Of a stretch of 64,000 bases of DNA, positions 26,486-54,394 are shown one piece after another; position 1 is the first letter of the stretch, and each line of letters opens with the position of its first letter. The translations under genes were made by a program, and so were the position numbers. Source of the DNA: Pomacea canaliculata (Eukaryota; Mollusca; Gastropoda; Architaenioglossa; Ampullariidae). The notes beneath the pieces were generated by a model. That model saw only the letters and a program-made list of their open reading frames with translations, searched no databases and had not been told where the DNA came from. Location: assembly GCF_003073045.1 (NCBI RefSeq), contig NC_037599.1, positions 4,848,247 to 4,912,246 of the forward strand, written 5' to 3'.

Positions 26486-29400
26486 ATGTTCCACGACTTC
26501 TATTCAGAGTGGGAATACGAGACGGACGAAAGGGACAACAGATTCAGGTAAAATTAATGTTGTCACGTGGTTTGATGTAGGTTACCTTAGTAATTACTTA
26601 GTAATTACAGGAACCGCACAACGGCATTAGGATAGTACATGTGAATCCGTCAGTCGACGGTTTCTGTTGATCATAAATATTCAGTGATGCCCTTGCAACT
26701 GTCTGCAGGACCTGTGGCAGTCTGTGCAAGGACCCCCATGTCCTCCACCTGCACCGCCTGTCAGCAAGAAAAGCGAAGTTTTTGAGGAGGTGGACTTATA
26801 TGCTGCAGATAACCGTGGGATACCTTTCGTTTTGTCAATGGTGAGTGAACTGAATGTATTTGTGCACCCGTACGCGCGGGTAGTACGGTCCAAGGCTTAA
26901 AAACCCTGGAAGCAAAATAAAGGCAAGCTTGGGAGAAATGGGTTTGGATGAGTGAAGGTTTGTTTGGGCAGTTGAAATTCCCGTCGACACAAATAACCCC
27001 TTTAAGAAACTTTTCAACCGTTTTCCCACAAACCTTTCACTTTTTTAAAATAACTGCAAATTGTTGATATGGAAAAACATAAAAATACATGACAAGAAAT
27101 AACGTTCGGGTGAATTGGATTTGTAAAGAAATGAAATGCCTGTACCCCTTGTGAGTCACTCATTACCTTATCACCAAGTGTTATATGCAGGTCGATTCTT
27201 GGGCCTCATTTTCTTCTATCATATCTGATGGACATGTTTGTCTTTCTCACTCCCTCGCTCTAACTTCTCTCCCTATTTACTCTAGCCCGTAATCTCACTC
27301 CCACCCACTCGCCCACACACACAGGATACAGAACTCGAACTTTGAGTAAACCTGAGTAGGAACACATTGCAAGAAGGAAGTGAAAAATACAATCAGATCG
27401 CTGGTGCACTAAGTAAGGTGTTCAATAGAAGCTTCAACTCTCGATGTTTTATCTTTCAATGGGGAAAATAAAGTGTAGTACTAGTGTAGACAGTAGTATG
27501 CTCCTGTGGTGAGATATACAGCAGTGAGAGGAGAATCACATACTCGCACACCGAATGTGGAGCATAATTTTTTTATTCCTCCTCTTTAAAAAAAAAAATA
27601 GAAAAACTGTCATGTTAACATTAGGTTACTATAAGACGTGATAGAAAACCTCTAACACGAGGAGTAGTTATAAAACATTTTCACTCATTACCTTATCACC
27701 AAGTGGTATTTGCAGGTCGATACTTGGGCCTCATTTTCTTCTATCATCTCTGATGGACATACAATATTCTAAAATTTCAAACAATATATTCAGGTGATTT
27801 CAAAGACGAAAAGCAGTATCTAAAAATAATAACATGTCATCAACAGCAAAACAGAATGACATCATATCTAATTGTAGATGGAAAGGGAGAGAAGGAGGTC
27901 GTGTTTGGGTGGTACGTGGGGGAGACTAAGGTGAATGCTGGGAGGTGCTTAGCAAGGATATAAAAAGCCAAACAGAGCAGATGGTCTGACGGACTGAAGA
28001 CTGAATGTTGTGAAGGCATCAGACATGTTGTACCTGATAACCGTCTCCAGCACCATGTCTGCTTTAATATCGGACATGATGTTATTGCTGTTACTACTTC
28101 ATGTCTGTGTTATAAAATAGAAAGGAACAGAATGCACAAGTCCTACATTAACATTCTTCTTGTGACTGAACATGTACTCATCTATTAACAGTCATCAGTT
28201 CAACACTCAATCAGCTTCGATGACCTGGTGTCGTTTCTGACCAAAGATTTGACGACAGACTCGCAGAAGGTGAGAGCAATTTACAGGTGGATAAACTACC
28301 AGAACCTGACAGAAGCAAGCTGTTACGCCCGAGACCACCCTGTTTCTCTACCTTACGGATGCCTGAAGTACGTCGTTGAGAAACGAAAATATCTCTCGGA
28401 ATTGTTTGCCCACCTTTGCAGGTATGCTGACTAAGGTAATGTACATCTTTTTTGTATGAAAGAAATGCTGATCTGACTAACCTTTATCCAACTGGAATAA
28501 GAAGTGTCCATGTAAATGCCATACCCTTCTTTTGATGAATGCATGTATACCTAATGATTCAAGTCAGCCCACCCTTGGACGTTTACACACGTTTACATGT
28601 ATATATATATAGTTTTTCTCTGATAAGCGTTGGTAATGATCAACATGCGCCTTTAAAAAAAGTATTTCTGTTTTGCAGCAGATTTTATTTTTTCTGATGA
28701 TGTACAGTGGAACCTCGGTTAACGAACTTAATCCGTTCTGGAAAGCTGTTCGTTATCCGAAATGTTCGTTATCCGAAACAATTTTTTCCATAAGAAATAA
28801 AGGAAATAGATTTAATTGGTTCCCAGCCCCTGTTGATTCGCTAATATTTGAAAGTTACAGGCTATATAGGTATTTGTCTTAATGAGAACAGTTATAATGC
28901 AATATAAATGGAGTTAAATAAACATAAAAACATTAACGAAAGCATTTAAACATCAGAAAACTTGCCGTTTTGACGGCGTGGGTGGATGGAGGTGTGGGGA
29001 GGAAGGGGGTGGAATTACTGTTGGATTCCCCCTCCATGAGCACACGTGACATAAAATCGGGGGTGACTTCCTTTTTCTGTAGCTTTGAGGTTAAAGGAAA
29101 AAACTTGTCCAGTGTCTGTTCCTTCTGCTTTTTATGTAAAACTCTTCGTAATACGACTTCACACATCCGACAGACGCATGCCACCTTCATACTTTGAAAT
29201 CATTTCCTTTTTCAATTCATTTGTTGGCCGCTTCCTTGTGATTACCTCACTGCTATTAATTGCTCTTAATCTTTTTTGGAGCCGATTGAGGATTGTCTTA
29301 TTAAAATAAAGCACAAAAATCCCTAAATAAGAAGAATGCGCATAGAAAGGAACGACTGATCGTAACTGTGTCTCGAGCGCGAATGATGACATGCTGGTCG

Positions 29401-32400
29401 GTCACGTGTGGTTCACGTGACTGTTCGTTATCCGAAATTTTGTTCGCTATCCGAGACAAATTTTTAACGAAATTTTTGTTCGTTAACCGAAATATTCGCT
29501 ATCCGAGGCGTTCGCTAACCGAGGTTCCACTGTACCTCCTTTTATAGTATATCACAGGATCACAGTCTCCGCGATCTCCTGCTGTTCATGCCGCTCACTG
29601 AAGTGCATCTTTCTTGAACAGACTTGCTGGGCTTCCATGTGTCGTGGTGCGAGGAATCGACCACAGACGGCTCAACTATAAGGTTCCGTCAAGGTCCCCA
29701 AACAGCACGTGGAACGCGGTGTACGCAGACGGCTCGTGGCGCCTCGTGCACCTGGAGGAAAGCTTCATAGAAAAAGGCGGAGGCAATTTTGTGGGTGGCT
29801 GGGTGATGGTGGAGGACGCTGGTAAAGCTACCCGTCAGGAGATGGGATAGTAAGAAGAAACACAGACTGCACATTTTTATTGTGTCACTGTTTAGGATAA
29901 CTGTTTATCTCAATGTAAATAAAAACTTCTTGCGGTAATAATCATAAAAATGTTTCATATTATTATGAAGATTCTTTATTATATGGGAGACATGTGATAC
30001 CTTAAAACAGTGATGCCCAACCTTTTTCGGCCTGCGGGCCATATACATTTACGACATGCGTGTCACGGGCCGCTTCACCGCAAAATTACAATAAAAGAAA
30101 AAAAAAGAGCAGATACCAAAAAATAAAAAAAAGACTGAGAGACGCCCCTCCGTAGGGATAAATACTTCGTCTTCCCTTTTTTTCGTTCTTTTTTTTTATT
30201 TTTTTTTTTATATTACTAACATGCCGATTTCCTGCATTGTGGGCAGAAGTTTCGCGGGCCGGATATGGCCCGCGGGCCGTAGGTTGGGCATCCCTGCCTT
30301 AAAATATCCCTATATCTACAGTCATTTACACATGCAGATTCTTAAAAATCTGTAAATTAATGTCCTCTTCGTCTCAAAAAGTAGTTACATGGGGTGTGAC
30401 AGCAGAACTGATGAGTCTTTTGATTCTAAATACATACGATGACATTATTCTCACAAAGTAGTAAATTTCATCACTAAAATGTATTCACGTAAAATTAATC
30501 TTATTAATAATAATAAATCTTTCATGATTATTTTTTGAAGCCACTACATCCCTCAGTATTACAGACAGAAATCCGACGATTTTTTCTTCTTCACCGACCC
30601 CGAGCACTTTGTTCACTTCTTCCTGCCTGAAGAGGGACAAGAAGCATGGCAGTTGCTGCAAAAGCCGCTGTCGTTTGAAAAGTTTGCAAGAAAACCGATT
30701 GTGGAAAAAGACTATACTCAATCTGGCTGGAGGATGTCTGATGAACAGACGTTTGTCACAAAAGCGCCTGAAGGTAGATGTGCCATCAGGTTTGATGATG
30801 TTCCCAGAGATGAGTCACTCAATCAGTACAAACTCTACTTTAACCCAGATGAGTCAGAAGCCTCATTGCCTGAGGAGTTACAGCTGGAATCATATGTTGT
30901 GGTCAACTCATCACCAAAGTCACTCATCTTTCGCCTGCCTGTACCTGGTTTATATCAAGTGCACATCCTCGACAAACACGGGTCGGAGCTAATATACTTA
31001 TTGTTAGAGTGCTCAGGACCAATCAAGAAACAGCGACCTCTACCCATCACACCGGAAGCCGGATTTGGTTTCGGTACCGAAGCGCAGGACGCTGGCCTGT
31101 CAGAGCCATCTCGTGAAGACGGGATGCTCGATGTCCGCGAAGGGGAGAAAATTCGCTTTAAATTCCGCACTCAGCCCTCCACGAATGTGCGGGCCAGGCT
31201 TGTGCACCACGACCGCGGAAGTGACGAGTTCACCAGTCGCGTTGCGCATGAGCAAAAAGGTGATCAGGTGACCGTCAGCGTCAGAGTCCCGTATGATGAC
31301 CACAACCCTGAGTACGGACTGCAGATTGACACCTGGGAAGGTGGAAACGACAGTGACTACATCAACGTCCTCAACTACCTGCTGACGCAAGACCAGCAGC
31401 TGACGAGCACAGTGAAAGGCAGGAAAGAACAGGTATTCAATTCGTGAAATAGTAGACCACAGGGTTTGGCTAATCTTCACTCCGCTGACCGCCATCGCAG
31501 GCTCCGATAAATAAAAAAGAAATAAAATAGACCCTAAAAATTAATTTTAAATAAGGTGAATTCCGACACTCAAATATTTAACTAGCCATTTGTCCTGTCG
31601 CGCACTCAGATTCTCTTCTACTCAATTTTTGTCAAAGTTGACTTCAAGTGGAAAATTCCGCTTATTTTTTAGGAATCAACAAAAGTTTCCACCATGCATA
31701 CTCTTATTTGACATATTACTCACCTGCCGAAGAATGTACAGAGAATGTCAATTAAATAAAAATTTTAACATTTTTAGACTAGTTAATTGCTTAAAGGGAT
31801 CAACAGGCTGCAAAGAGTTTATCTTTCTTTTCCGTCTTCTTCCCCCAAAAAACTGCTAACCGTAAGTGATGTGATATATATTGATGTCGTCACCTGTTGA
31901 CATACAAAGTGATTTGTTGACTTCTTTCTTTGAATGTTTGATGTCGTCTTTGTCGACAGACATCTAGATGTCATATACGATAATAAACTGCTATGCTTTC
32001 ATTAGGTGGTCATTTTCGTATGTCACCCTCTAAACTGATGTGCTGCTCACTTTAATTGATTGGCTGTTATCGTCTGTGTGGGAAGATTCGCGATGAGCTG
32101 AAGCTGGCCATAACCGACATGACGCCGAGGTCCTTGAGAACGCCCTTGTCAAGTACTGTGCGTCCGGAGGTGATGACAAGGGCAGACAATCTCATGCGAA
32201 TAAGAAGAAGAAAAGCAAGACCACCACCACCACCACCACCAAATACCTACTCCTGAAGGCCTGTCGCCGGCTAAACGATCTGCATCGTCAGGGTGAGCCC
32301 CTGGTTCAACCAAATAATAAGAAAAATCACACGCAGCAACATATGAACACAAATTGCACGGGCAGATACAGAAAAACAGTTACACAGAGAGGATGAGTGA

Positions 32401-34468
32401 TTTTATTTGACCTCCTTTTGGTTAACAGTGCAAAACAGATTTTACTATGCAAATGCACAAAATATTGTCGTGACTCTATGTATTTCGCTGGCGGTTGTGT
32501 CTCGTGTACCGCAGCCATAGAAACGGCTTCTGAGGGAAGCGACCTCAGTGCCCTGGAGACGGCGCTGATGTTGGCGGAGAGGTCTCAGCTCGCCTACTTC
32601 CTCAAGCGCACCACGTGGTACAAGCAGGCCAAGGAACGCCACAAGAAACTGCGCCGCCTGTCGCTGGTGACAAAGACTGAGAAACTTCACCCCAAACATG
32701 TGAGACAATTGAAACTTTAAATGTATTTAATCAACAGTTTGAAATAAACGGTGGGAGCAAACAGCTAACACCACGAACAATGTGCATGCATGAAGAATTG
32801 AGGAGTGGATAAACAGTTCTGTTGATCATGCAAGATATTTACCGCAGAGACAGCTTTTGATGCTAGATTTTAATATTTCAAATGTAAACACCTCAAAGAG
32901 AAAGGGAAAGAGAATGGATTAAGAAGGCATAAAGAATGTCTGCTGAATTTCTCCCGTCTGATGTGTGGCACTGGGAAGTAGGCAACATAAGCAGGAGATG
33001 AGTGTATCGGGTTGAGACAGGAGGATTTTCTTTAGAGATTGAATACATTATACGCTGGTATCATTAACCTATGGTTAACGGTTGATAAAGTGTGAGCACA
33101 CTTCTAAGACATTATCGGTAAATGATATCGCGGAAAATATCATCATCTATAATTGTAGCAGAGAAGGATTATCAAGTAATAATCAACTTATAAATAAACG
33201 TTTTCAGGTGAGAGAGATTAGGAGGTACACCCGTCCCCATGCAGCCGTCCGGGACACACTTGTGGCCACCTACATACTGTTGGGAGAGCCACCGGACCAG
33301 TTGAAGGTACTGGGACTTGTGAAAACAAGATGACAAAAAAAAATAAATAAAAGTTAAGTAGGTTTTTAAAGTCAATACGTATAAACTTAAACTGGCAAAA
33401 ATAAAAGTTCAGCAGAAGCTAGTTGAAGCTGTAAATAGGAAATCAACACCAAGTACTTCCCTCTAAAGTAACGAATACAACAATCGGGTATCGAACGTTA
33501 ATAACAGCCTACTATTTACTGTAGTTTTTATATTCAAATTGTTGTTTATTATTACAAAATGGTTATCATGGAAAAGTCTTTACGTGGTTGACTTATGACT
33601 GTTAAATGATCACTTTAATTATAAACCTGTACTGCAGCTTGGCACATTTGGAGAATGGCGCCAAGATGTTTAAAAAAGAATCAGGTGCTGTTCAAAATGT
33701 CAGGTGGTGTTCAATTACATGTTTAAAGAATGTGTCTGTTTGTTGACAAAAGTGGCGTGAAGTGCGAGCTCTGCTGAGCATGCCCGGTTCCGATTCCATC
33801 ATGGAGCGCATCAAAAACAATCATCTCGAGGACCTCGACGAGGAGAGAGTTCAGAGAGCAGCCGCACTCCTCGGTAACTTCCGGTGGGAAGAGGTGCGGG
33901 CGGTCAGCATCGCGGCCGGTGCCTTCTATCAGTGGGTGAGTGGACGAGACTGCTATCTACAGGTATCTACAGTTAGAAATAAGTTGGAATAAATTGTTCA
34001 TCAGGTCGTCCAAATAAATCGGTCAAGGTGTGAGTTGTAGTATTTCTACTTCTACCAGCAGGTAAATAGCCATAGCAAGACACTTGAAGATCAAAATATT
34101 CCAGGAAGACGATCACACAAGGAAACGGTTGTCTTTGTCACAATCTGTCGCAACTTTAAAACCGTAAAGCTGGCCAAGATGATTTGTATTTGTACCTTCT
34201 GTTTTTAACAAATTAAACACACACACATTCACCACAAGACCACGATTAATTAATTGTGCGATTGACACATCAAAATCTTTGAAGTAACAATTACTACACT
34301 TTTCATGCATCGCTGCACCGATAAAGCTCTGTAATGTACAGATATCTCACATCTGTCCATGTATAATTTCAGAGCAAGGAGGTCGTGGAAAATTTTCAAA
34401 ATTCACAAGCAACCCCAGCGGATCCGACTTTGAAAGAAGAAGAGCCAAAAGAGGAAAATGTAGCATGA
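26486..34468 (+). CDS. KY/hillarin-like pseudo-transglutaminase with dynein-stalk-like C-terminus, gene 1
   Basis: Exons: 26486-26547, 26709-26840, 28192-28421, 29622-29849, 30541-31432, 32086-32169, 32515-32699, 33208-33306, 33753-33935, 34373-34468; about 730 residues. In order: an acidic head; a Pro-rich stretch (PPCPPPAPPV); a transglutaminase-like core of the hillarin/kyphoscoliosis-peptidase type (ISFDDLVSFLTKDLTT, KVRAIYRWINYQN, ELFAHLCRLAGLPCVVVRG, NSTWNAVYADGSWRLVH); a hillarin-type segment (FFFFTDPEHFVHFFLPEE, AWQLLQKPLSFEKF); a beta-rich region (exon 5); helical hairpins (exons 6-7); a part resembling the dynein microtubule-binding tip (RPHAAVRDTLVATYILLGE, WREVRALL, VRAVSIAAGAFYQW); and an acidic tail. 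The usual Cys-His-Asp residues look replaced, which suggests no protease or transglutaminase activity. Exon 1 and exon 6 each look one base short against gene 2. Family placement is good; function is inferred as a cytoskeletal scaffold. Confidence 0.82.
27165..27762. repeat. Direct duplication inside KY gene 1 intron 2
   Basis: The block CACTCATTACCTTATCACCA...GGTCGAT.CTTGGGCCTC...TCTGATGGACAT occurs at about 27163-27240 and again at about 27683-27762, with few differences. A more diverged version lies in copy 0 near 24115-24190. It is a local tandem duplication within the intron. Confidence 0.75.
27959..28117 (+). promoter_or_regulatory. Possible internal promoter with a short hydrophobic open frame
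   Basis: TATAAAAAG at 27959-27967 lies in intron 2 of KY gene 1. About 65 bases downstream is an ATG frame encoding MLYLITVSST followed by MSALISDMMLLLLLHVCVIK and a stop at 28117. The same TATA (24403) and the MSALISD coding stretch recur in copy 0. It could drive a transcript starting just before exon 3, or be chance conservation after recent duplication. No convincing donor joins the short frame to exon 3. Confidence 0.3.
28705..29532 (-). mobile_element. Internally deleted Tigger/pogo DNA transposon in KY gene 1 intron 3
   Basis: Terminal inverted repeats (CAGTGGAACCTCGGTTAACG and its complement) are flanked by TA on both sides (28703-28704 and 29533-29534), the pogo/Tigger target duplication. 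Internally, repeats of TTCGTTATCCGAAA extend the arms. The minus strand still encodes the transposase start (RKRPTNELKKEMISKYEGG, helix-turn-helix) and the transposase end (RRVLHKKQKEQTLDKFFPL). The middle of the transposase, including the DDE core, is missing. It is 828 bases long and non-autonomous. Confidence 0.9.
30008..30296. mobile_element. hAT-type MITE in KY gene 1 intron 4
   Basis: The element begins CAGTGATGCCCAACCTTTTT and ends with the near-complement AGGTTGGGCATCCCTG. GC-rich subterminal blocks read GGCCTGCGGGCC and GGCCCGCGGGCC. It is flanked by a perfect 8-base target duplication CCTTAAAA (30000-30007 and 30297-30304). At 289 bases it has no coding capacity. The intact duplication implies a fairly recent insertion. 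Confidence 0.93.
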
Positions 34469-36153: not shown

Positions 36154-36312
36154 TGTCATACTTCGTCTAGGCGAGGTTACTCCAACAACGGGTGAGCACC
36201 GCGCAGTATCCAGGGTGGATGGACACTACCCTCTACTACACACCAATCTCACTTACTCGGGAGATGTACACTCCTCTCTCTATCTTTCTCTCTCTCTTTC
36301 TCTCTCTCTCTT

Positions 36313-36346
<34 letters not shown>

Positions 36347-37333: not shown

Positions 37334-37339
37334 TTCATC

Positions 37340-38730
37340 TCTTACATTACGACAAACATCTGTCTTTATTGGTCCCAGTCACTAATCTCTCTCTGCAATC
37401 TGCCTTCACCACGCTCTGTATTTTCTGTAAAGTTCTGTAAATTTTATTGTAACGCTTTCATCACTCAGGTCGTTGAAATCTCCTGAAGATTAGCTCCACT
37501 CGCCATATTCTGTCCATCTCATCAAGCCAAGCTAATTATCATCGCAACTCTCTTCTTGCTGGCTGTCCACATTGATAAGGTTTATAAAATATAAAATGTT
37601 TACTGGCTGTTATCGTGTACCTCATCTTTATGTTGTTTAGTGTGTCTATATGTACCTCTCTGTTTACTGGCTGTTATCTTTTATTTATCATTATTGGTCT
37701 GCGCAGACAGTGCAATCTATCTTGGACGTGATGCTGCGCGTTAATAAGTTCCCATTATCATCATTATTAAACAACTGTCGAAGGATAAACTAATCCAAGG
37801 GACGTAAGCCACATAAAAAGGTTTCGCGTGTTATCTCCCATTTCTGTGTGTTTTGGTACGTTATCCGAAATCAAAGTTGTTTTCTCAATAAAGATATAAA
37901 GAATTAAATATATAAAAAAAGAAGAAATACTATCCCACTGTTTGAAATTATTTAATTTGCCTGATTCTTTGTTACATTTATCAAGATGCATCCCGAGGAA
38001 ACTGTTTGTTTGCAAGTAAATCACATGGGAAAGTGAAGCATGCACCATTTGATTTTTTCTGTTCATAAAAGCCTTCCTAATCTTTCCATTTTTATTCTAA
38101 CGCTTTTCTGATGAAAGATGAAGTTACGTTTACACCAGATATAATGATGTCTTTAATGATAATAATATATATTTTCCATATCGTATCACTTATTAGCAAT
38201 AATGGTAGCTAGAATGATCTAGACGGGCTTGGGCACAGTCGTACGGCGGTCACCGGCAGGTCAAGCGGGGTTAGATGCCTCATCAAAGCGCCCGAGACGT
38301 CGGGCAACACCTAGCAACAGACCGCTACCACATTTCATTCATAACACCTAGATGGGGATGAGGCTGGGCTTCTTTTGAAGTGTGTTGACGACAGCACTTT
38401 TACAAACGAGGGGCTACACCACCATTTGACAAGGAGGTTGATGATGCGAATGATAACTATAAATATAATCATCAAGTCAAGAAGATGAGTGTATCGCGTA
38501 GAGCAGAGACGTTAAATAACCTGGACAGCCAACTCAGGCGCGGGAACACATCTCTTGTGTCGCGCATGCGCTGCACCAGGTTTGTCATTCGCCTGAGGTG
38601 GGGACAAACGAGCGGTCGACCGCTGTGCCACCCGACTGACATTCTACGTGTATTAATTTTATGTTTCAACGTACACAGTGAGACAGATTAAAACATTTTA
38701 AAGAGTAAGAACGTAGAAAAAAGAACGGGT
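37340..38730. other. Gene-free spacer between fossil retroelements
   Basis: Mostly AT-rich, with two GC-rich islands at about 38222-38335 and 38470-38640. On the minus strand the second contains GTGGCACAGCGGTCGACCGC, which resembles a polymerase III A box, so it may be another SINE head. No supporting B box or second copy was found. Nothing else is supported. Confidence 0.35.
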
Positions 38731-38732
38731 AG

Positions 38733-39161
38733 GCATCAAACTATTTTAAAAAATCAAATAAAGCCCCGATAAGTAAACATAATGTAAACTGATTCATAAG
38801 ACTACAACAACAGTTTTAATACATGTGTGGGTGCCACACTAGCGCCCTCTGTCAGTACGCTGACCAGGAAGTACAAAAGTCTGTGATAAGGTCAGTCGGT
38901 CACCACCCTTCAAAGTCTGAGGTCGACCAGCGCCACCACGCACTCGACAACTGCTCGGCTTTGTTTGGAACAAACAACATTGTAAGGTAATCATGATGTA
39001 TTCTTTTATAGTTTCAAGTTAAAGTGAAATTCCATTTCAAAACTTTAAGACAAATCTCGATTACACTATTATCTAAGTCGTTTTCTGTAGGTTTTTCTTC
39101 TGGATAGTGCCTGTCTGTTACGCGCATTTCGTTGCCAAACTATTCAATCGCAAGCCTAAAC
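38733..39161 (-). repeat. Left LTR of the Gypsy-type array (incomplete)
   Basis: Matches the middle and right LTRs from ATCAAATAAAGCCCCGATAA to CGCAAGCCTAAAC but lacks the part next to unique DNA that the other two have. This LTR is therefore shorter, and no target duplication can be checked. Confidence 0.85.
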
Positions 39162-40198: not shown

Positions 40199-41802
40199 TT
40201 ACCATCCCGGGGTAAAGAGGCAATGACCCCGCCTCCAGCGTGGTGGTAGAACACAAGACTGCGACGTTTGCCACTTCCTGCTTTCATCACACACCGAAGC
40301 GGGTTGAGGTCGTTGTCTATTATTGGCACAGAAGCGTGCTTTGTGTCCATAACCTTGGCATGTAAAACATTGAAGTCTTGTACTTGGTTTGACAGAATCA
40401 GGCTTGGACTGGTTTGGCGATACTGTTCGTTTTTGTTCTCTCAACGGCCGCCGGTGTACTGGTGGCGAGTTAGTCGATGGTCTACTTCTGTTGTCGACTG
40501 GTGGGGTCCTAGGAGAGTAGGTACTAGGAGGGGTTGGTCTATTAGTAGTCATAGTAGCCTGGCAGTCCTTGGGGTTGTGCAGCTTGCATTCGCAAACATG
40601 GTTGTTTTTCTGTCGGCGCGCTATGTTCTTACTGGGATGGGCCTTCCGATACTTCTCAGCCCACTCTATCATTTCTGCTGCCGATTTAGGATCCCTTTCC
40701 TTTAGAAATACTGCCATATCTTTAGAAATGCTCTGCATTATCTGTTCTCTTAAGACGAGGTCTCGCAGGCTTTCGAATGACTTGTCTATCCCTGCCAACG
40801 TTATCCATCTATCCAGTAAACTTGTTACTCTAGTCAGAAAAGCGGGCATAGACTCTCCTTCAGCTGGTCTCACTGACCTCAGTTTTTCTCTGAATCCGTC
40901 TTCTGTACACTGGAATTTCAACAATAATTGTTTTCTTAACTCTTCATACTCCACTTGTCCCTGCACACAGAGTGCGTGATATAACTTGAGAGCTTCCCCC
41001 TGAATCGTAGCGGACAAATGTAATGGCCACAAATGTCTGGGCCATCGGAGGGCTTCTGCATGGGCTTCAAAACGGAAAAGAAAAGAATCTATGTCATCTA
41101 GATCTTCCTTTAAGAGAGGTAATTTCGGAATAAATCCTTTAGGGGTTACTTTTCTTACTTGTGCCTCGCCATTAGGTTGACCATTTCCTAACCTAAGTCT
41201 AGCTAGTTCAAATTCCCTCTCTCTTTCTCGCTCGCGCTCCTCCCGTTCTGCCTGTTCTTTCTCTCTTTCTCACTGAATCTTTTCTTTTTCCAATCTCTCC
41301 TCCTTTTCTGCCTGTTCTTTCTCTCTTTCTCGCTGAATCTTTTCTTTTTCCAATCTCTCCTCCTTTTCTGCCTGTTCTTTCTCTCTTTCTCGCTGAATCT
41401 TTTCTTTTCCAATCTCTCCTCCTTTTCTGCCTGTTCTTTCTCTCTTTCTCGCTGAATCTTTTCTTTTTCCAATCTCTCCTCCTTTTCTGCCTGTTCTTTC
41501 TCTCTTTCTCGCTGAATCTTTTCTTTTTCCAATCTCTCCTCCTTTTCTGCCTGTTCTTTCTCTCTTTCTCGCTGAATCTTTCCTTTTTCCAACCTCTCCT
41601 CCCATTCTGCGTGTTCTTTCTCTCTCTCCCTTTCTGCCTGTTCTTTCGCTCGTCTTTCTTCCCTTTCATTTCTCTCCCTTTCAAGCCTCTCTTCCCTTTC
41701 CACCTTCTCGTATTTCTCTATTCGCTGAATTAAGTACTTAGTGAGCGACTCGCCCGTTAAACCTATGCTCTCCCCTTGCTCTTTAAAGGCCTCAATATCC
41801 AT
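40199..41802 (-). other. Gag region of internal copy A (fossil)
   Basis: The N-terminal part begins MDIEAFKEQGESIGLTGESL and runs into Glu/Lys/Arg coiled-coil repeats. A capsid-like helical region (WPLHLSATIQGEALKLYHAL) and a CCHC knuckle (CFTCQGYGHKARFC) follow. Treated as a fossil; it looks broken, with a few breaks. Confidence 0.8.
41225..41620 (-). repeat. 60-base coding minisatellite in gag, copy A
   Basis: About six tandem units of 60 bases, each encoding a 20-residue charged block (EKEQAEKEERLEKEKIQRER). Predicted as a continuous coiled coil. Confidence 0.9.
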
Positions 41803-42590
41803 GATTACTTCTAAAAAGAAAACACAAAATTTCTAATTACAGAGCTATACCCTGCCACTAGTCAGAAACAAGTTAGCAAACTCAAATTTACCAGTGACAA
41901 CACTACCCTGCAAAACTCTCACGTTCAAAATTTTACCATACTACACTTAAACAAAATATCATCAAAGGTAAACTGAATATCATTAAAGGTAAAGTGCTTC
42001 TCAAGGAATTTGTCAAATCGTTTTTAAATTCCCACTCAAAACTAGGATATGAATCACAGAAAGAACTAAATATCATTATAAGTTCACTCTCAGCATCACA
42101 TGGCAAAGTGAATTAGAGAAAGCCCAAAAAATTTCTCTTAAAATTTTAAGAGAGCAAAAGCGACCCTAAAAAGAAAAGACTTCTTACTCCTACTCACTCG
42201 CACATCCAATCAAGAAGAACAGAAAAACTTAGCGACAGACGAGAGACAGGAAGGCACAGTAACTAGTTCCTTACTACGGGTAGAACTATACACACCCGGG
42301 GACCCGTAAAACTGGAGACGGGATCACAGCATGGGGTAACTACACATACCAAATAATTAATCAAAAAAATACAAAGAGCTGGTAACAAGTTCTGGCAGCA
42401 CTTTTCAAAATAATGTCATGAGGCAATGGGTGGCAACCGAAAACGGTGACCACAACACACACACAAGAATTACTAAAAAAAAAAAAACTGTATTGCTAAC
42501 AGAAAATGATCAGCGACAAAGGACAGCTTCCGCACAACACAATACCAAACGAGACAGACCCACGACAGATCACGTCGGGGTCACCAAATA

Positions 42591-43133
42591 TGTCACACGC
42601 CACGTCACACACGGTATTCACGCGCATTCAAACAATACACAAGACAACGATCTGTCCATGAGCTTCTCGTCTTACTTTACTAACAGCCCGCTGGGCGCTG
42701 GTGCATCAAATTATTTTTTTAAAAATCAAATAAAGCCCCGATAAGTAAACATAATGTAAACTGATTCATAAGACTACAATAACAGTTTTAATACATGTGT
42801 GGGTGCCACACTAGCGCCCTCTGTCAGTACACTGACCAGGAAGTACAAAAGTCTGTGACAACGCCAGTCAGTCACCACCCTTCAAAGTCTGAGGTCGACC
42901 AGCGCCACCACGCACTCGACAACTGCTCGGCTTTGTTTGGAACAAACAACATTGTAAGGTAATCATGATGTATTCCTTCATAGTTTCAAGTTAAAGTGAA
43001 ATTCCATTTCAAAACTTTAAGACAAATCTCGATTACACTATTATCTAAGTCGTTTTCTGTAGGTTTTTCTTCTGGATAGTGCCTGTCTGTCACGCGCATT
43101 TCGTTGACAAACTATTCAATCGCAAGCCTAAAC
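42591..43133 (-). repeat. Middle LTR of the Gypsy-type array
   Basis: About 543 bases, shared by both internal regions. The minus-strand end reads ...GTGTGACA, next to the primer-binding-like site. It differs from the right LTR at only a few positions. Outer edges are approximate. Confidence 0.85.
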
Positions 43134-44185
43134 GGTTGCAGAAGACTTGACCTCGGTTTCTAAGGGGTGTTTTTTTCAGGGGTGTTTTTCGTTGCAGAGG
43201 AAGCGTTTCGTCTATTTTTACTGAAGTCAGATCCTCCACAGTGTCCATTGACAGAGTGGGTAAGGACACCTTGTCATCTGCTGTTGAAGATGGAATTAGT
43301 GCAAGATTGCAATAGCTAGGTGCCTGAGGGAGCAGATAAGATTCCGATTGCACAACCGGAATTTGAATTTGACTTTGAGGAGTCATTTCAAGCGAGAGGA
43401 TATCCGCAAAACTGATACATTCGCCTCTGAAAGTTTCTTCTATTATGGGTACATTGACGAGGGGAACTACACGATTGCGTCCCTTAGCTGACGGGTTTTT
43501 TTTTTTTTTTTTTTTTTTTTGCATATGTCACAAGTTTGGCAATACTGGCGTACGTCCCTCCGTATGCCAGGCCACCAAAAGTGGCTGAAGACTCTTTCGA
43601 GAGTATTTCTCGCGCCTTGGTGTCCGGCGAATGGGCTGTCATGGGCATATTCCAAGACAGTAGATCTTAGAACCTGTGGCACAACTATTTGAGTGACATC
43701 TGATTGCTGTGGCCGTTGAAAATGTCTCCACTTTGAAGGAGCTGTTTAACCAGTCGGTTTTCGTAAAGTAAGGCGTTAGGGTGCGATCTTCCCTCTGCTT
43801 TTGGATTAACTCCGATTTAGAAATGCCTACTGCTGGTAAGGCTGGACTCAAGAGTGTGGGTGCTTGGTTCGCTTCCCTCGTGCTTTTGTCACTACTGCAG
43901 CGCTTGTTGATGCGGGTTGGTATTCGGCTGTGAACGTTACCTCTTGCACGCCGGGAACGTTGCCTATGATGACATCAGTTACTGGATTCTTGATTACACG
44001 TGTAAGAGGTCCAGTGAAGAAAGGCGTGTCCACCTGCACTCGTGCTAGAGGAAATACTTCCTTACGTCCTCCGAAGGTAAGACACGTTTGGTTTTTCCCC
44101 AGATATTCTGTAGGTGCCACTAAGCTCGCTCGAATGCCAGCTGTAGTCGCTCCAGTATCCCTTAGAACCTGCACCGCTTTTCCTT

Positions 44186-45670
44186 TTACCATCCCGGGGT
44201 AAAGAGGCAATGACCCCGCCTCCAGCGTGGTGGTAGAACACAAGACTGCGACGTTTGCCACTTCCTGCTTTCATCACACACCGAAGCGGGTTGAGGTCGT
44301 TGTCTATTATTGGCACAGAAGCGTGCTTTGTGTCCATAACCTTGGCATGTAAAACATTGAAGTCTGGTACTTGGTTTGACAGAATCAGGCTTGGACTGGT
44401 TTGGCGATACTGTTCGTTTTTGTTCTCTCAACGGCCGCCGGTGTACTGGTGGCGAGTTAGTCGATGGCCTACTTCTGTTGTCAACTGGTGGAGTCCTAGG
44501 AGAGTAGGTACTAGGAGGGGTTGGTCTATTAGTAGTCATAGTAGCCTGGCAGTCCTTGGGGTTGTGCAGCTTGCATTCGCAAACATGGTTGTTTTTCTGT
44601 CGGCGCGCTATGTTCTTACTGGGATGGGCCTTCCGATACTTCTCAGCCCACTCTATCATTTCTGCTGCCGATTTAGGATCCCTTTCCTTTAGAAATACTG
44701 CCATATCTTTAGAAATGCTCTGCATTATCTGTTCTCTTAAGACGAGGTCTCGCAGGCTTTCGAATGACTTGTCTATCCCTGCCAACGTTATCCATCTATC
44801 CAGTAAACTGGTTACTCTAGTCAGAAAAGCGGGCATAGACTCTCCTTCAGCTGGTCTCACTGACCTCAGTTTTTCTCTGAATCCGTCTTCTGTACACTGG
44901 AATTTCAACAATAATTGTTTTCTTAACTCTTCATACTCCACTTGTCCCTGCACACAGAGTGCGTGATATAACTTGAGAGCTTCCCCCTGAATCGTAGCGG
45001 ACAAATGTAATGGCCACAAATGTCTGGGCCATCGGAGGGCTTCTGCATGGGCTTCAAAACGGAAAAGAAAAGAATCTATGTCATCTAGGTCTTCCTTAAA
45101 GAGAGGTAATTTCGGAATAAATCCTTTAGGGGTTACTTCTCTTACTTGTGCCTCGCCATTAGGTTGACCGTTTCCTAACCTAAGTCTAGCTAGTTCAAAT
45201 TCCCTCTCTCTTTCTCGCTCGCGCTCCTCCCGTTCTGCCTGTTCTTTCTCTCTTTCTCGCTGAATCTTTTCTTTTTCCAATCTCTCCTCCTTTTCTGCCT
45301 GTTCTTTCTCTCTTTCTCGCTGAATCTTTTCTTTTTCCAATCTCTCCTCCTTTTCTGCCTGTTCTTTCTCTCTTTCTCGCTGAATCTTTTCTTTTTCCAA
45401 TCTCTCCTCCTTTTCTGCCTGTTCTTTCTCTCTTTATCGCTGAATCTTTTCTTTTTCCAACCTCTCCTCCCATTCTGCCTGTTCTTTCTCTCTCTCCCTT
45501 TCTGCCTGTTCTTTCGCTCGTCTTTCTTCCCTTTCATTTCTCTCCCTTTCAAGCCTCTCTTCCCTTTCCGCCTTCTCGTATTTCTCTATTCGCTGAATTA
45601 AGTACTTAGTGAGCGACTCGCTCGTTAAACCTATGCTCTCCCCTTGCGCTTTAAAGGCCTCAATATCCAT
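44186..45670 (-). other. Gag region of internal copy B (fossil)
   Basis: Same order of parts as copy A. A 404-residue open frame covers repeats, capsid-like region and zinc knuckle. The region is otherwise close to copy A at nearly every base and looks broken, with one or two breaks. Confidence 0.8.
45225..45480 (-). repeat. 60-base coding minisatellite in gag, copy B
   Basis: About four units of the same 60-base repeat found in copy A. The unit number therefore changed after the two copies separated. Confidence 0.9.
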
Positions 45671-46455
45671 GATTACTTCTAAAAAGAAAACACAAAATTT
45701 CTAATTACAGAGCTATACCCTGCCACTAGTCAGAAACAAGTTAGCAAACTCAAATTTACCAGTGACAACACTACCCTGCAAACTCTCACGTTCAAAATTT
45801 TACCATACTACACTTAAACAAAATATCATCAAAGGTAAACTGAATATCATGAAAGGTAAAGTGCTTCTCAAGGAATTTGTCAAATCGTTTTTAAATTCCC
45901 ACTCAAAACTAGGACATGAATCACAGAAAGAACTAAATATCATTATAAGTTCACTCTCAGCATCACATGGCAAAGTGAATTAGAGAAAGCCCAAAAAATT
46001 TTTCTTAAAATTTTAAGAGAGCAAAAGCGATCCTAAAAAGAAAAGACTTCTTACTCCTACTCACTCACACATCCAATCAAGAAGAACAGAAAAACTTAGC
46101 GACAGACGAGAGACAGGAAGGCGCAGTAACTAGTTCCTTACTACGGGTAGAACTATACACACCCGTAGACCCGTAAAACTGGAGACGGGATCACAGCATG
46201 GCGTAACTACACATACCAAATAATTAATCAAAAAAATACAAAGTGCTGGTAACAAGTTCTGGCAGCACTTTTCAAAATAAAGTCATGAGGCAATGGGTGG
46301 CAACCGAAAACGGTGACCACAACACACACACAAGAACTACTATAAAAAAAAACTGTATTGCTAACAGAAAATGATCAGCGACAAAGGACAGCTTCCGCAC
46401 AACACAATACCAAACGAGACAGACCCACGACAGATCACGTCGGGGTCACCAAATA

Positions 46456-47000
46456 TGTCACACACCGCGTCACACACGGTATTCACGCGCATTCAAACAA
46501 TACACAAGACAACGATCTGTCCATGGGCTTCTCGTCTTACTTTACTAACATAGCCCGCTGGGCGCTGGTGCATCAAATTATTTTTTTAAAAATCAAATAA
46601 AGCCCCGATAAGTAAACATAATGTAAACTGATTCATTAGACTACAATAACAGTTTTAATACATGTGTGGGTGCCACACTAGCGCCCTCTGTCAGTACGCT
46701 GACCAGGAAGTACAAAAGTCTGTGACAACGTCAGTCGGTCACCACCCTTCAAAGTCTGAGGTCGACCAGCGCCACCACGCACTCGACAACTGCTCGGCTT
46801 TGTTTGGAACAAACAACATTGTAAGGTAATCATGATGTATTCTTTCATAGTTTCAAGTTAAAGTGAAATTCCATTTCAAAACTTTAAGACAAATCTCGAT
46901 TACACTATTATCTAAGTCGTTTTCTGTAGGTTTTTCTTCTGGATAGTGCCTGTCTGTCACGCGCATTTCGTTGCCAAACTATTCAATCGCAAGCCTAAAC
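46456..47000 (-). repeat. Right LTR of the Gypsy-type array (5' LTR of the element)
   Basis: About 545 bases, nearly identical to the middle LTR. Similarity stops sharply at 47000, where unique host sequence begins; this marks the insertion edge. Confidence 0.85.
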
Positions 47001-47814: not shown

Positions 47815-47876
<62 letters not shown>

Positions 47877-48041
47877 CTGACAGCACTATATTAGTTTTCT
47901 GAGACCACTACTTTTTTTGTTTCGTTGTGTGACAGACATCTTATCTGACATCTTGGAAGCCATGCAGTACAGGGGAATTATTGTGTAATCTCACTGAAAT
48001 TATAGTGAAAAGCGACCAGTATATCCAATTAACATTTCAGA
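47001..48041. other. 5' flank of KY-like gene 2
   Basis: The part at 47090-47235 matches the upstream flank of gene 1 (25140-25275), so it belongs to the duplicated unit. A GTT microsatellite follows at 47815-47876. Exon 1 of gene 2 is preceded by an acceptor-like CATTTCAG, which allows an upstream non-coding exon. No promoter was recognised. Confidence 0.5.
47815..47876. repeat. (GTT)n microsatellite
   Basis: About 20 perfect GTT units. The open frame through it is an artefact (poly-Val). Confidence 0.97.
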
Positions 48042-51000
48042 ATGTCCCGCAAGTTCTGTCCGGTGCCGAATTATGACAAAGATGACAGAGTACAGCAAAT
48101 CAAGGTAAATTAAAACTGTTTGTAAATTATTCTGGGGCTGTAGTTATGAAACAAAAGTAACTCGTTTACTCCAGATCAAAATCGGGAACTCAATGAAAAG
48201 CATCTTGTTTCCCAGGTTATAAAGTAGTGTCCAGACCCCGCAAGACACTGCTTCGTGTTTCTTTATCCCAGGGCACAGCTTTATAACAACAAATCCAGGA
48301 GTAAAGCAACTTTGGGATCTAGACACCGCTTTATAATTTTGGAAACAATACACTTGTGCTTGAGTTTCCCATGTTACCACAGGCAACGAATTATCCCTTC
48401 TTCATTACTCCCGCCACTGGAGAACAACAAGGATTACACCTAGGTGACATCACGGTGCTTTGCATCCTTAAAGAAGCATTAGAATAGTGAAATCGAATCG
48501 AAATTGAGGTAAATATTGAGTTTTAATTTAAAAAGCATTCATAAATCTGCCCTTTTGAAACTGTCCTCAGGAGTTGTCCAAGTCTGTGAGAAAACTCACA
48601 TACCCTCCACCTGCACCACCTGTCAACAAAAACTGGGGAAAGGAAGACTTCAGTGTTATTGATAATTGCGAGAGAAAACTGGTCTTGGCGACTGTGAGTA
48701 CTGTAAATACCAGCTAGCAAAGAGTGGTCTGCTGTGAAGTGTATGTGCCAGGAAGTAGAGGGTCCATTCGTATTCCGGTCATAAACACACGCCACCCTTT
48801 GACTGTGGTCGTTTATAAACGCACACACACACACACCTTAACTCAAATGCACAACGACACGAACACAGGCAAACCTACACACAGTCACACATCAGATCGC
48901 GCGCACGCATACCAAAAGGTAATTTCTCACATAGCTATATCTCTGCTCCTTTATTAACAGACAGAAGATCAACACTCAATCAGCTTCGATGACCTGGTGT
49001 CGCTTCTGACGAAAGATTTGACGACAGAAGTGCAGAAGGTACGAGCACTTTACATGTGGATAAGCTGGCAGAACCTGACAGAAGCAAGCTCTTACACCCG
49101 AGACCACCCTGTTTCTCTACCTTACGGCTACTTAAAGTACGCTGTTGAGAAACGAAAATATCTCTGGGAATTCTTTGCACATCTCTGCAGGTGCGTTATA
49201 ACTCGTCCTTAGAATTGCAGGTGCAAATTTTGCTTTTCACCATGCCAATGATCTTGTTTCTGTAATGATTTTATACAATGCCTGTCTTGTCTTGAGAAGG
49301 ATTTTACTATTTCCTCCTCTCTCTTCCCCCTTTCTCTCTCTCTGCTGATGGTTACAGGTGAATGTGGTAGTCTTCTATATATAGACCATAGAATTACAAT
49401 ATTTTTAACGCCAACAAAAATGGCCTACCTTACCGTGACATTCAGTCTATTGAGTGGTTTTTAGGGTCAACATGTATACTAGCCCACACTTCTCATGATT
49501 GTTTTGTTTCTGTTGACGAATGATACCTTATAGTCTATAACTGCTTCTCTAATGAATGTTATTGTTTGCATAAAACTGTTTCTCTGCTATATAATTTTTA
49601 TGTAGAAACAAATAACCGCTTCTCCACCAGAAAATGTTGTTATTGTTTCTTTATTGATAAATGTTATCGAAATGTATTATTGTTTCTCTTATGACTTATA
49701 CTATCTAGACCAGGGGTGGGCAATTAATTTTCCCAAGGGGCCGCATGAGAAATTGGGATGGTTTAAGAGGGCCGGACTAATATAGTTAAGTCAGTTTTAC
49801 CTAGTACTGTATATATAGTATATATACTATCCTTCGCCAGCGGGCGGGCCGGTCAGAGACAGGAGGCGGGCCGGATCCGGCCCGCGGGCCGGCCTTTGCC
49901 CAGGTCTGATCTAGACTGCCGAATTTTATTTCTAGCTCTAGACATAACTCGTGTTGTCTGTCTGACTGGGCAGACTAGCTGGCCTGCCATGTGTTGTGAT
50001 CCGTGGAATGACCAAGTTAACTGGCTGGAAGGATTCGTCATCGTCACGGTCACCAGACAGCACGTGGAACGCGGTGTACGTGGACGGATCCTGGCAACTT
50101 GTGCACATTGTGAAAAGTTTCTTATCTGAGTCCACAGGTGGTACCACGCGTGCCTTGATGAAAGTGGGGAAGATTGCAAAGCAGTCCGTGAGGGCAGAGG
50201 GTATAAATATTAACAGGCTTCATGAATATTTTGAGATACCATCGTATAAACTCTCACTCATTTTTTTACTTTTGTAGTTTTGTTTGCAAAAGTGCTTTAG
50301 ATTATTCTTTCTTAAACTATTGATCTCCTAAGACAATTAGCTCTTCCATATCTTTTTTTTTCACTCAAGCATGATATGGTAACGGATGTGTTTTGACAAC
50401 AAATTTTTATGTTGGCGCTGCATTAGAATCAACCATTCAAGAATGAGTAATTAATTAAAGCATACTTTGATAATTCTTTAATAATTTAATTATGCTTCCT
50501 TGATCATAATGTGGTCTGTTCTTGATTGTTGAGTGAAAAGACATATTCCGAACCCTTCTATACATCGATATTCGACGACTTCTACTTCCTCCCTGACCCT
50601 GCACACTTCATTCACTTCTTTATGGCTGAAGAGTACAAAAAAGAATGGCAGCTGCTTGAAAAGCCATGGTCGTTTCAAAAGTTCACAAACACCCCGTATG
50701 TCTACCCATCGTACTTTAATTCTGGCTGGCGTTGTCCGAAAAGCTGAATTTTATCACCAAAGCGCCAAATGGTAGATGCGCCATCTGGTTTCAAGATGTT
50801 CCTAGAGACGAGGAACTTAATAAATACTTTCTTTATTTTGATCCGGAGTCGTCAGATACTCCTATATCGGATGAGCTACTAACGAACTCCTGTGTGGTCG
50901 TCAACGCTTCCCCAAAGTTACTGTTCACACGACTACCTGTAGCTGGTTGGTACCAACTGTACATCAACAACAAAAACGGCTCGCCACTTCTGTTCCTGCA

Positions 51001-53466
51001 CATTGTGTGCTCAGGACCAATCAAGAAGCAACCTTTTCCCTTTGCCCCAAAAGGTGGGTTTGGGTTCGGTAACGAGGCCCAGAGCGCAGGCCTGTCAGAC
51101 CCTCTTCTCCAAGACGGGGTCATCAAAGTCCGAGAAGGGGAAAAAACTCGCTTCAAATTTCGCAAACCGACATCCAAGGAAGTTCGGATCAGGCCGGTGC
51201 ACCATGATCGCGGAAGTGACGATTTCATTAGTCGCGTTACGCATGAGCAGAGTGGTGATCACGTGACCGTCAGCGTCAGAGTCCTGTATGATGACCACAA
51301 CCCTGAGTACGGACTGCAGATCGACACTTGCGAAGGTGACAGTGATTCTGAAAACGCCCTCAATTACCTGCTTACCCCTGATCAGCAGCTGTCAGGCATC
51401 TTGAAAACAAAAAAATCCCAGGTAATTCAGAAGACAACCTGAGAAAATATTTCAGATTTTGCTAACCTTTAACCAGCAGCCTTAGAATTCTTTGCTTTAG
51501 AATAAATTTCTTGGTTCTAGAAATATTGCTCGTTTTAAGAATGCTGGAATCTGTTACGCTCGCTCAGTCTGTTGTACACTCGCTTTGCCTGGAGAAGAAA
51601 ACGTTGGTTGTTAGACATCACTCCTTCCCAACTGGCATAGCGTGGCACAGGTTAACATAAACATTGCATTTTTTAGACAGTACACTACACTATGTAAGAC
51701 TATTTAAATGTTCAAAGTGTTATTTTCCATTTAAGGCATCTTGATGACACTTTGTACAGTGATGAACTGTTCGCTTTCACTAATTAATAACTGTCATCTG
51801 TCTCCGAAGGCTCGTGATGATCTGAAGATGGCGATAGCCGACGACGACACCGAGGTACTTGAAAATGCTCTTAGCGAGTATCGTGCGTTTGGTGATGATG
51901 GCAAGAGCAGACAACCTCGTGACAACAGTGAATGACTACTCCTACCTGCCTGCCATAAACTGCATGGGATGCACCGCCAGGGTAAACTGCAATGCACTCC
52001 CTCATGCGCAATGAATGTGCAAATTAGCGCGTGCAGCAACGCATAAGGAAGCGTGGGCACGAATCCACATGTGAATAAAATGAGACAGTGTAATGGTAAT
52101 GGTAATTGAGAAACACTAATATTCCCTAACCCTGACGAAGATGATAAAGGATGAGGATGTTAATGTATATATGCCTATATACACAATACTTTATATTATG
52201 AACTTTTATATTTCGTTAGAACAAAATCTGTTACTGGTTCTGTGTTCCTGTGATGCAGCCGTCGACTCTGCTTATCGTCAAAATGACCTCAAGACACTGG
52301 AGGAGGCGCTGTCGTCAGCGGAGAGGTCTCAGCTCGCCTACTTCTTCAAGCGCACCACGTGGTACAAGCAAGCGGAAGAACGTCACAAGAAGCTTCGTCG
52401 CTTGTCTCTGATCACAAAGAACTTCACGAACCTTCGCCCCACTCATGTAAGACATACATACATTCACTTTTTTCCATGACGTGTATGCAGTGACATTACA
52501 AGATTTTATTTTCAAATTACTCAGATGGGTGATGAGGCTGTGGAAATATTATATTCTAATTTTACCTTTCTGTATTAAGCGTTTTTGAGAAATTTGCAAC
52601 TGAATATAACTGTCCAGGTGAGGGAGATCAAGAGCTACAGTCGCCCACATGTTACAGTGCAGGAAACACTTGTAGCCACTTACATACTGCTTGGCGAAGA
52701 TCCGGACATGCTCGAGGTAACTGGAAACCATTCTGGCAAACAGAATCGAAAACTTTTCGGTCGAAAAAACTCTCGGCTGTTTGATATCTCCCACAAACTC
52801 TTCTAACAACGATTTTTAGGGGGGAGATACTACTTCATTTGAATCAGGCTCATGCAAGTGAAATGAAACAGATTTCTGATTTCAGGTTGCTGGACACCAC
52901 AATACATGGACAACGTCTTACCACACCCTAACACACAAACTAGCGCCATCTCTTTTGTCGACGCACGCACTCTAAGCGCTTATAAACTATTCACAGAAAC
53001 AACTACCAGCTATCATTCACCTATGTGCACCCACGCACAGAGCCCTCTAAAATATTCACTAACACACGCTCACATGCAGCAAGGTTCTTGAAGTGTAAAA
53101 GCCAGCTGTCTGTGCGCTTGCGGACAAGATCAAAGGGCAGTGGGACGCCAACTGTTTTTAGTGAGGAGTACAGGAACTTTGCGGTGTTGCCCCAGTGTGA
53201 AACGAGTGCTCGTTCCTATTCTCTGTTTCTTATTATTCTTTCCGAAACTGCTGAAAAGTATCGCGATTGCTTTCAGAGAAAAAGTCTCAGCTGCGCGTTT
53301 GTAACCACTTTTATCTTTGGCATATTCTGATTTTGTTATGCTTCCTAATGTCTTTAAATGTACTCTGTGCTGAGTGCATCGCTCAACTCGAATGTTGCAC
53401 TCCTAAAGTATATAAAAAACATAGAGCTTATTTCTCGATTAAGTACATTTCGTTCTGTAAATCCCC

Positions 53467-53540
<74 letters not shown>

Positions 53541-54394
53541 GTTGTTGTTGTTGAGCGAATTGTAGAAGATGTTCCTGCAGCATTGTGGGCGAATAGTGAC
53601 AAGCTGGTCAAGGAAGTGCTCTCTGTCTGCAGAAGTGGAGAAACGTGCAAGCTCTGCTGCGCATGCGTGGTTCCAAAGCCATCTTGGAGCGCATCAAGAA
53701 CTGGAACTTTGAGGACCTCAACGAGGAGCGCGTTGAGAAGGCCGCCGCACTCCTCCGTACGTTCCAGTGGGAAGAGGTGCGGGCGGTCAGCATCGCGGCC
53801 GGTGCCTTCTATCAGTGGGTGAGTGTCTGGACGAGACTGTCGATATAATGCCGCAGATAACTATATATATCTAAGCTAGTGTAAGCAACGGTTAGCGCTG
53901 TTAGCGCCTGTCACCAATACAGTGAAGGTTGGCTGCCCTGAGTTCATTTCTCGTCTCGGGCACGCTGATCTTTCTCTGCACGTGGCATCTGTTTACAGGG
54001 CTGGCTGCCCTCCGCCAAGGACGGTCCCAAGCCCGGCTGAAAAAGGAGGAGGGTTGGGCGTGGGGCCAGCACGCCCACCCCGTAAAAACAAATCCTTGCT
54101 ACTAAAACATCGACAACAGTAAACTGTCGTCGATGGCCTATGCACCAGGAGGTGCGAAGGGCAATAATAAATAAATATAATAAGTGTAAGCTTATGTAAT
54201 GTTATCCAAAGAGATCTCATATTTCGACACAAAGCTTTAAAACAAAGGTGTGAATGGATAACTAATGATATTTGCCTGGACACGTGTGATTCCAGAGCGA
54301 TGCTGTCGTGAGACAATTTCAAGATTCAAGAGAAACATCCACGACGTCGGCTTCAGAAGAACCAGAAGTAAAAGAAACGTCTTCAGCAGTCTAA
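48042..54394 (+). CDS. KY/hillarin-like pseudo-transglutaminase with dynein-stalk-like C-terminus, gene 2
   Basis: Exons: 48042-48104, 48571-48693, 48961-49190, 49974-50187, 50541-51421, 51810-51891, 52259-52446, 52618-52716, 53636-53818, 54296-54394; about 720 residues. Layout and phases match gene 1. The start is MSRKFCPVPNYDKDDRVQQIK; the Pro-rich segment reads TYPPPAPPV; the core includes KVRALYMWISWQN, EFFAHLCRLAGLPCVVIRG and DSTWNAVYVDGSWQLVH. The hillarin-type segment is FDDFYFLPDPAHFIHFF with EWQLLEKPWSFQKF. Helical hairpins ARDDLKMAIADDDTEVLENA and AVDSAYRQNDLKTLEEALSS are followed by the dynein-tip-like part (RPHVTVQETLVATYILLGE, VRAVSIAAGAFYQW). The tail is Ser/Thr/Glu-rich and ends SSAV. 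Exon 5 looks one base short near 50730 (after NSGWR, before MSEKLNF in gene 1 terms). Everything else joins, so an assembly indel is plausible. Function is inferred as for gene 1. Confidence 0.82.
49711..49908. mobile_element. hAT-type MITE in KY gene 2 intron 3
   Basis: Starts CAGGGGTGGGCAATTAATTT and ends GGCCTTTGCCCAGGTCTG, with GC-rich GGCCGC and GGCCCGCGGGCC blocks inside. It is flanked by a perfect 8-base duplication ATCTAGAC (49703-49710 and 49909-49916). Its 198 bases are non-coding. It differs in sequence from the hAT element in gene 1, so the insertions are independent and later than the gene duplication. Confidence 0.93.
53467..53554. repeat. (TTG)n microsatellite in KY gene 2 intron 8
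   Basis: About 28 near-perfect TTG units, roughly 80 bases upstream of exon 9. It produces long poly-Leu/Val/Asn open frames that are not genes. Confidence 0.97.
53880..54185 (+). mobile_element. tRNA-derived SINE (longest copy) in KY gene 2 intron 9
   Basis: The head (CGGTTAGCGCTGTTAGCGCC, then GAGTTCATTTCTCGTCTCGG) matches the copies at 9368 and 63905. The body contains CTGCACGTGGCATCTGTTTA, a GC-rich block (GGGGCCAGCACGCCCACCCC) and CACCAGGAGGTGCGAAGGGC, then an AATAATAAATAAATATAATA tail. About 300 bases from head to A/T-rich tail is the normal SINE plan. It sits between exons 9 and 10 of gene 2. Confidence 0.75.

Follow-up and report, generated by a model that had tools for sequence, protein, structure and literature searches.

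Evidence for a KY/hillarin gene family with a homologue of the dynein microtubule-binding domain in the snail Pomacea canaliculata

We analysed a stretch of 64,000 nucleotides from the genome of the snail Pomacea canaliculata (C10:4848247-4912246 in our contig numbering; hereafter the window), which contains two related genes on the forward strand, gene 1 and gene 2. Both encode a transglutaminase-like core and an immunoglobulin-like (Ig-like) region of the kyphoscoliosis peptidase (KY)/hillarin type, and very probably their C-terminal exons encode a homologue of the dynein microtubule-binding domain (MTBD) within these same KY genes. A preliminary description of the window, made from its letters, had proposed this order of domains as a possible new protein architecture. 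The proposal was upheld, as profiles of the family match dynein MTBDs significantly and the same exon order recurs at other loci of the genome (440,159,624 bases on 24 contigs were scanned; all locus counts given here are lower bounds). We regard it as a new architecture built from two known domain families, with novelty judged within the searched literature: no paper on the dynein MTBD together with kyphoscoliosis peptidase was found, most subscription papers lying outside the search and no eukaryote protein database being compared. At a probability of about 0.5, our reading is that the window genes belong to a large snail family (33 non-dynein MTBD loci, 23 of them in a single array) in which a dynein tip sits on a dead KY transglutaminase scaffold in most examined members, and whose motor-less proteins would connect microtubules with the part of the cytoskeleton to which KY, filamin and septins belong.

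Homology of the C-terminal exons to the dynein tip

The preliminary description had pointed to motifs of the dynein tip at 33208-33935 in gene 1 and 52618-53818 in gene 2, and these motifs are present there in both genes. The C-terminus of gene 1 (156 residues, a helical repeat joined to the two MTBD exons, A and B) was searched against PDB with phmmer. It retrieved 19 sequences at an expect value (E) of 10 or below, all of them dynein heavy chains, with a best E of 7.8e-5 and five below 0.001; 17 of the 19 were aligned to its last residue. The C-terminus of gene 2 retrieved 17 sequences. Fifteen are dyneins (best E 0.0016); of the other two, a designed TIM barrel reached 0.0058 without any single stretch passing by itself, and UPF0728 reached 0.55. 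A control search with the gene 1 sequence reversed gave one unrelated match at E 0.42. A profile was also built from eight paralogues of the same genome, collected because they resemble the window genes or lie next to KY loci, and not for any likeness to dynein. It matched 74 PDB sequences at E<=10 (best E 3.2e-10). We take the best 60 of these 74 all to be dynein heavy chains. Most bear that name; the others have names such as MKIAA0325, DHC2 and AAA+ ATPase domain-containing protein, and one is called Radial spoke head protein 9 homolog (4583 residues). Alignment of the family with five dynein tips by hhalign gave 98.4% (9.7e-15). Together, the PDB searches, the paralogue profile and hhalign confirm the resemblance to the dynein microtubule-binding tip. 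Moreover, a profile made from five dyneins only and run over 9,282 open reading frames (ORFs) of the window and a set of non-dynein loci retrieved nothing at E<=1 except A and B exons of the family, with values of 4.3e-4 for exon B and 0.019 for exon A of gene 2, and 8.8e-3 and 0.054 for those of gene 1.

Several results weigh against our reading. The Pfam model MT (PF12777), suggested earlier as a check, did not match gene 1 and scored gene 2 below threshold (E 0.026, 14 bits, cut-off 24). A genome scan with the same model gave 38 matches, none in the window. Five of eight family members are listed by it, and the one that passes (25.4 bits, cut-off 24) lies at C13:13.41 Mb, where no KY exons were found upstream. 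In the suggested comparison of folds, the exon B model alone (62 residues) gave no Foldseek or VIA match. In the predicted models the helices follow the H1-H6 order with low confidence, both for the single exon B (predicted local distance difference test, pLDDT, 70.8; predicted template modelling score, pTM, 0.43) and for the repeat plus exon A (pLDDT 67.1, pTM 0.32). The likeness could have come from convergence of helical sequences, with which the sub-threshold Pfam scores and the weak scores of gene 2 alone, two of its 17 matches being non-dynein, would agree. Such an origin is nevertheless extremely improbable in view of the E value of the paralogue profile, the hhalign result, the dynein-only profile without a false match at E<=1 and the reversed control.

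The second stalk coil of dynein had been described as absent, and this agrees with our search: a profile of the coil (CC2) found nothing downstream of nine members (best E 2.3; for four of them just 1.5 kb was covered), compared with 1e-25 to 3e-34 in dyneins. Dynein ATPase modules were not seen in the window genes, for which no dedicated AAA search was run. An intron shared with dynein, considered as a sign of exon shuffling, is not supported. In two snail dyneins (L001 and L008, by eye) the intron lies about 10 residues after the W, and in the family it lies just before the W.

Exon structure and linkage to the KY core

Three exons of gene 1 (28192-28421, 29622-29849 and 30541-31432) join in frame to give 450 residues containing Transglut_core (PF01841, 26.7 bits, cut-off 23) and Ig-like_KY (PF23265, 50.1 bits, cut-off 27); a separate Pfam scan of gene 1 gave 29.6 and 52.1 bits. 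With both KY/hillarin domains above their cut-offs, the KY part of gene 1 is genuine. The KY-Ig fragment of gene 2 (50720-51442) gave no Pfam match, yet over 235 residues it shares 63% identity with gene 1, and the core and KY-Ig exons of gene 2 follow the same order as their gene 1 homologues.

The core had been presumed catalytically dead, and its residues are consistent with this. The Cys-His-Asp triad is not found in either window gene: the catalytic His of the HSWNA motif is Ser, Asp is replaced by His, and Cys is absent by the motif register that we used. Among the distinct MTBD-linked KY cores found by motif pattern, His is replaced in 11 of 11 (the two window genes, those at C10:13.41, C11:13.72, C13:1.24 and C13:1.25 Mb, and five members of an array on C11), and Asp is kept in two (C10:13.41 and C11:13.72 Mb). 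Two C5 cores from genes without MTBD matches retain both His and Asp. Loss of Cys is not confined to MTBD carriers, as a C4 KY gene without an MTBD also lacks it by the same register.

At the other end of the genes, a two-exon cassette with 0/0 splice phases had been described as terminal. Each of the two intervals does consist of exons A and B with their intron, all with AG/GT borders in phase 0, and the cassette is conserved: in 8 of 8 members exon A runs to a GT donor and exon B follows an AG, in phase 0. Its terminal position did not hold. We conclude that the genes continue past exon B because a donor follows the last W codon (GT in eight and GC in one of nine members) and because the stretch conserved next between the two window genes, at 34373-34468 and 54296-54394, is a short exon containing a stop. 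It encodes 31 residues in gene 1 and 32 in gene 2, with an acidic end. The exons of the two genes are as follows.

26688-26770, + strand: gene 1, block 5' of the core with a conserved counterpart at 48548-48632 in gene 2 (blastn, 75% identity), probably within an N-terminal exon, borders approximate
28192-28421, + strand: gene 1, transglutaminase-like core, exon 1 (in-frame join to the next two exons; PF01841; 87% DNA identity to gene 2)
29622-29849, + strand: gene 1, exon 2 of the transglutaminase-like core, carrying STWNAV where the His motif is expected (in-frame join; PF01841)
30541-31432, + strand: gene 1, KY segment and Ig-like_KY exon (PF23265, 52.1 bits; in-frame join)
32086-32169, + strand: gene 1, first helical-repeat exon, borders by reading, one base short relative to gene 2 near 32118 (sequence comparison)
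32515-32699, + strand: gene 1, helical-repeat exon 2, continuing into the MTBD (reading frame)
33208-33306, + strand: gene 1, MTBD exon A, aligned with H1 and H2 (AG/GT borders, phase 0; PDB search)
33753-33935, + strand: gene 1, MTBD exon B, aligned with H3 to H6 (AG/GT borders, phase 0; PDB search)
34373-34468, + strand: gene 1, last exon, short and acidic, containing the stop codon (conserved in gene 2 by blastp, E 0.015)
48961-49190, + strand: gene 2, transglutaminase-like core, exon 1 (homology to gene 1)
49974-50139, + strand: gene 2, transglutaminase-like core, exon 2, 3' border approximate (homology to gene 1)
50556-51421, + strand: gene 2, exon of the KY segment and Ig-like region, lacking one base relative to gene 1 near 50729, 5' border approximate (homology to gene 1)
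51810-51891, + strand: gene 2, first helical-repeat exon, borders by reading (sequence comparison)
52259-52446, + strand: gene 2, second helical-repeat exon (sequence comparison)
52618-52716, + strand: gene 2, MTBD exon A (AG/GT borders, phase 0; PDB search)
53633-53818, + strand: gene 2, MTBD exon B (AG/GT borders, phase 0; PDB search)
54296-54394, + strand: gene 2, last exon, short and acidic, containing the stop codon (conserved in gene 1)

The genome scan gave 45 KY-Ig matches, which correspond to 29 genes, and 61 MTBD-exon matches, which correspond to the 33 loci outside dyneins. Two C2 matches (E 7.94 and 0.90) were dropped from the linkage count, and some of the exon A matches that were kept have E values of up to 7.7 alone. 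An MTBD locus lies on the same strand within 10 kb downstream (1.2-7.0 kb) in 19 of the 29 KY-Ig genes, and none in the other 10. In the array at C11:15.26-15.61 Mb all 14 KY genes are paired with an MTBD locus, and nine further MTBD loci are without a listed KY match; outside it, 5 of 15 KY genes are paired. Gene 2 and C11:13.72 Mb are further KY-MTBD cases, missed by the KY-Ig scan and read directly. Reading the 3' side of five KY genes as a check gave one blind positive, the C3 gene, with exons A (3.8e-7) and B (1.2e-8); no MTBD exons were found in 6-7 kb on the 3' side of the KY genes at C5:32.48 Mb, C10:8.43 Mb and both C4 loci.

These pairs could in principle be separate neighbouring genes that were duplicated together. 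Three MTBD loci would fit this explanation: at C10:0.36, C13:13.41 and C13:13.59 Mb helical repeats and MTBD are present, and the upstream DNA, searched over 14.5, 14.5 and 7.1 kb respectively, gave no KY exons. Against separate genes, the last repeat runs into exon A as one continuous exon at four loci, the frame of gene 1 is open from the second repeat exon through exons A and B to the stop, and the 19 same-strand pairs occur at five places outside the array as well as within it. We consider it very unlikely that the two halves belong to separate genes. Because of the three loci, a form with the repeats and MTBD and without KY may exist alongside the joined genes.

The three loci occupy C10:359007-361296, C13:13408417-13408986 and C13:13586682-13587170. 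The C11 array (C11:15260174-15615167) extends over about 350 kb; its 23 MTBD loci and 14 listed KY-Ig genes lie almost all on the minus strand (loci L026, L028, L030, L032, L034, L036, L039 and L040).

Between the two window genes, positions 38713-46851 comprise two near-identical units with common repeats of about 300 nucleotides at 38713, 42685 and 46552 (89-100%). Their minus-strand ORFs contain a SCAN-like domain and a CCHC-like stretch, and the region is probably two tandem long terminal repeat (LTR) retroelements with one LTR in common. The ORF of each element begins with a Glu/Arg/Lys-rich stretch encoded by a 60-nucleotide tandem repeat (41161-41759 and 45148-45627), whose copy number differs between the elements. 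A long trinucleotide run (TTG-type) is found at 53500-53560, in the intron before exon B of gene 2.

Integrity of the window genes and the capacity to bind microtubules

The ratio of nonsynonymous to synonymous substitution (dN/dS, Nei-Gojobori) between gene 1 and gene 2 is 0.36 over all 598 codons, indicating purifying selection between the copies. The MTBD appears as constrained as the rest of the protein, with values of 0.35 for the KY part (418 codons), 0.39 for the repeats (86 codons) and 0.40 for the MTBD (94 codons, bootstrap 0.24-0.71); exon A alone gives 0.18, and exon B alone gives 0.72, which counts against our reading. Other features tell against intact genes. The first repeat exon of gene 1 is one base shorter than that of gene 2 at 32118, and the KY-Ig exon of gene 2 is one base shorter than that of gene 1 at 50729. 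These gaps mean either that both genes are newly broken and perhaps in decay, or that there is an error in the assembly, or that our exon borders are misplaced. Another KY-MTBD copy, at C13:1.238 Mb (C13:1238737-1238844 and L042), shows frame changes inside exons A and B as assembled. The window copies could thus be pseudogenes, decaying members of a real family, which would leave our reading untouched for the other loci. Long-read assemblies can contain single-base gaps, which speaks against decay, as do the low dN/dS and the open exons and preserved splice sites elsewhere in both genes. We judge decay of the window copies a substantial possibility, short of an even chance, and think it rather more probable that both are intact.

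Six salt-bridge residues of the dynein MTBD are named in PMC7042235, and we placed its numbering on the yeast chain of 6kio because the letters then fit. By this numbering, E3122 in H1 is Glu in eight of nine members and Asp in one, so that all nine carry an acidic residue there. R3124 in H1 is Arg or Lys in 5/9 members, and R3152 in H3 in 6/9, including both window genes. Less favourable to binding are the remaining positions: R3159 is Arg in three of nine (in gene 2; Ser in gene 1), K3117 is Lys in one, and R3201 is kept in register in none, an Arg lying one residue earlier in six. In addition, net charge over the tip ranges from +7 to -9 across the nine members, two of which are net acidic, and by alignment the H3-H4 loop is three residues longer than in most dyneins. 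This pattern is compatible with microtubule binding and does not show it. The lost contacts, the charge and the longer loop would also fit a domain that descends from the dynein MTBD and no longer binds tubulin, and that now either caps the helical repeats or acts as a protein-interaction module. The acidic residue of H1, the constraint on the MTBD and the snail dyneins themselves, which also differ at R3152 and R3201, argue against such a loss, which we hold to be possible but rather doubtful. We incline, with some reserve, to the view that the KY-MTBD proteins are working microtubule linkers.

In such a protein the order would be a transglutaminase-like core without the catalytic His and a KY Ig-like region, then helical repeats, the MTBD homologue (H1-H6) and a short acidic tail. 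The C-terminal domain would still bind microtubules, and its affinity would be fixed, since the second coil and the ATPase ring that could switch it are both missing. The KY half would hold another cytoskeletal partner, and the protein would then act as a passive microtubule anchor or cross-linker. If this is true, the dynein tip is a portable microtubule-binding module that can function outside the motor and without the coil sliding that sets affinity in dynein, and the family would reveal how much of the tip is enough for binding. KY/hillarin proteins would also gain a link to microtubules, and one lineage would have undergone a burst of these genes.

Comparison with known systems

Known relatives of the KY half have cytoskeletal partners, which favours our reading. 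Mouse KY is described in PMC6078408 as a transglutaminase-like protein of the Z-disc in the filamin C network, with no direct evidence of enzyme activity and a specific role in muscle that is termed unestablished. Leech hillarin is located at the axon hillock and is said to work with septins (PMC3081291). The snail proteins share with this family both Pfam domains (PF23265 and Transglut_core) in the usual order; the MTBD-linked members differ from it in lacking the triad His and in the helical repeats and MTBD added C-terminally.

FAP246 is an axonemal protein on the ciliary central apparatus. In a search of PDB with a profile of the KY segment, FAP246 of Chlamydomonas cilia (7n6g, 7sqc) was the sole solved match below E 0.1 (2.5e-6). 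It shares the KY-type segment F.F..P...I.....WQLL, whereas only about 55 residues match and it is absent among the best 60 of the 74 PDB matches of the MTBD profile. On this sequence match, a tie between KY-type segments and ciliary proteins is hinted at.

The dynein heavy chain (PF12777 MT; PDB 6kio, 6kjo, 3err and 6rzb) shares with the snail family about 100 homologous residues, from H1 to the W that ends H6, including the Glu of H1 and the proline turn. The snail family differs from it in that no second stalk coil was found and no ATPase modules were seen, and in the extra residues between H3 and H4.

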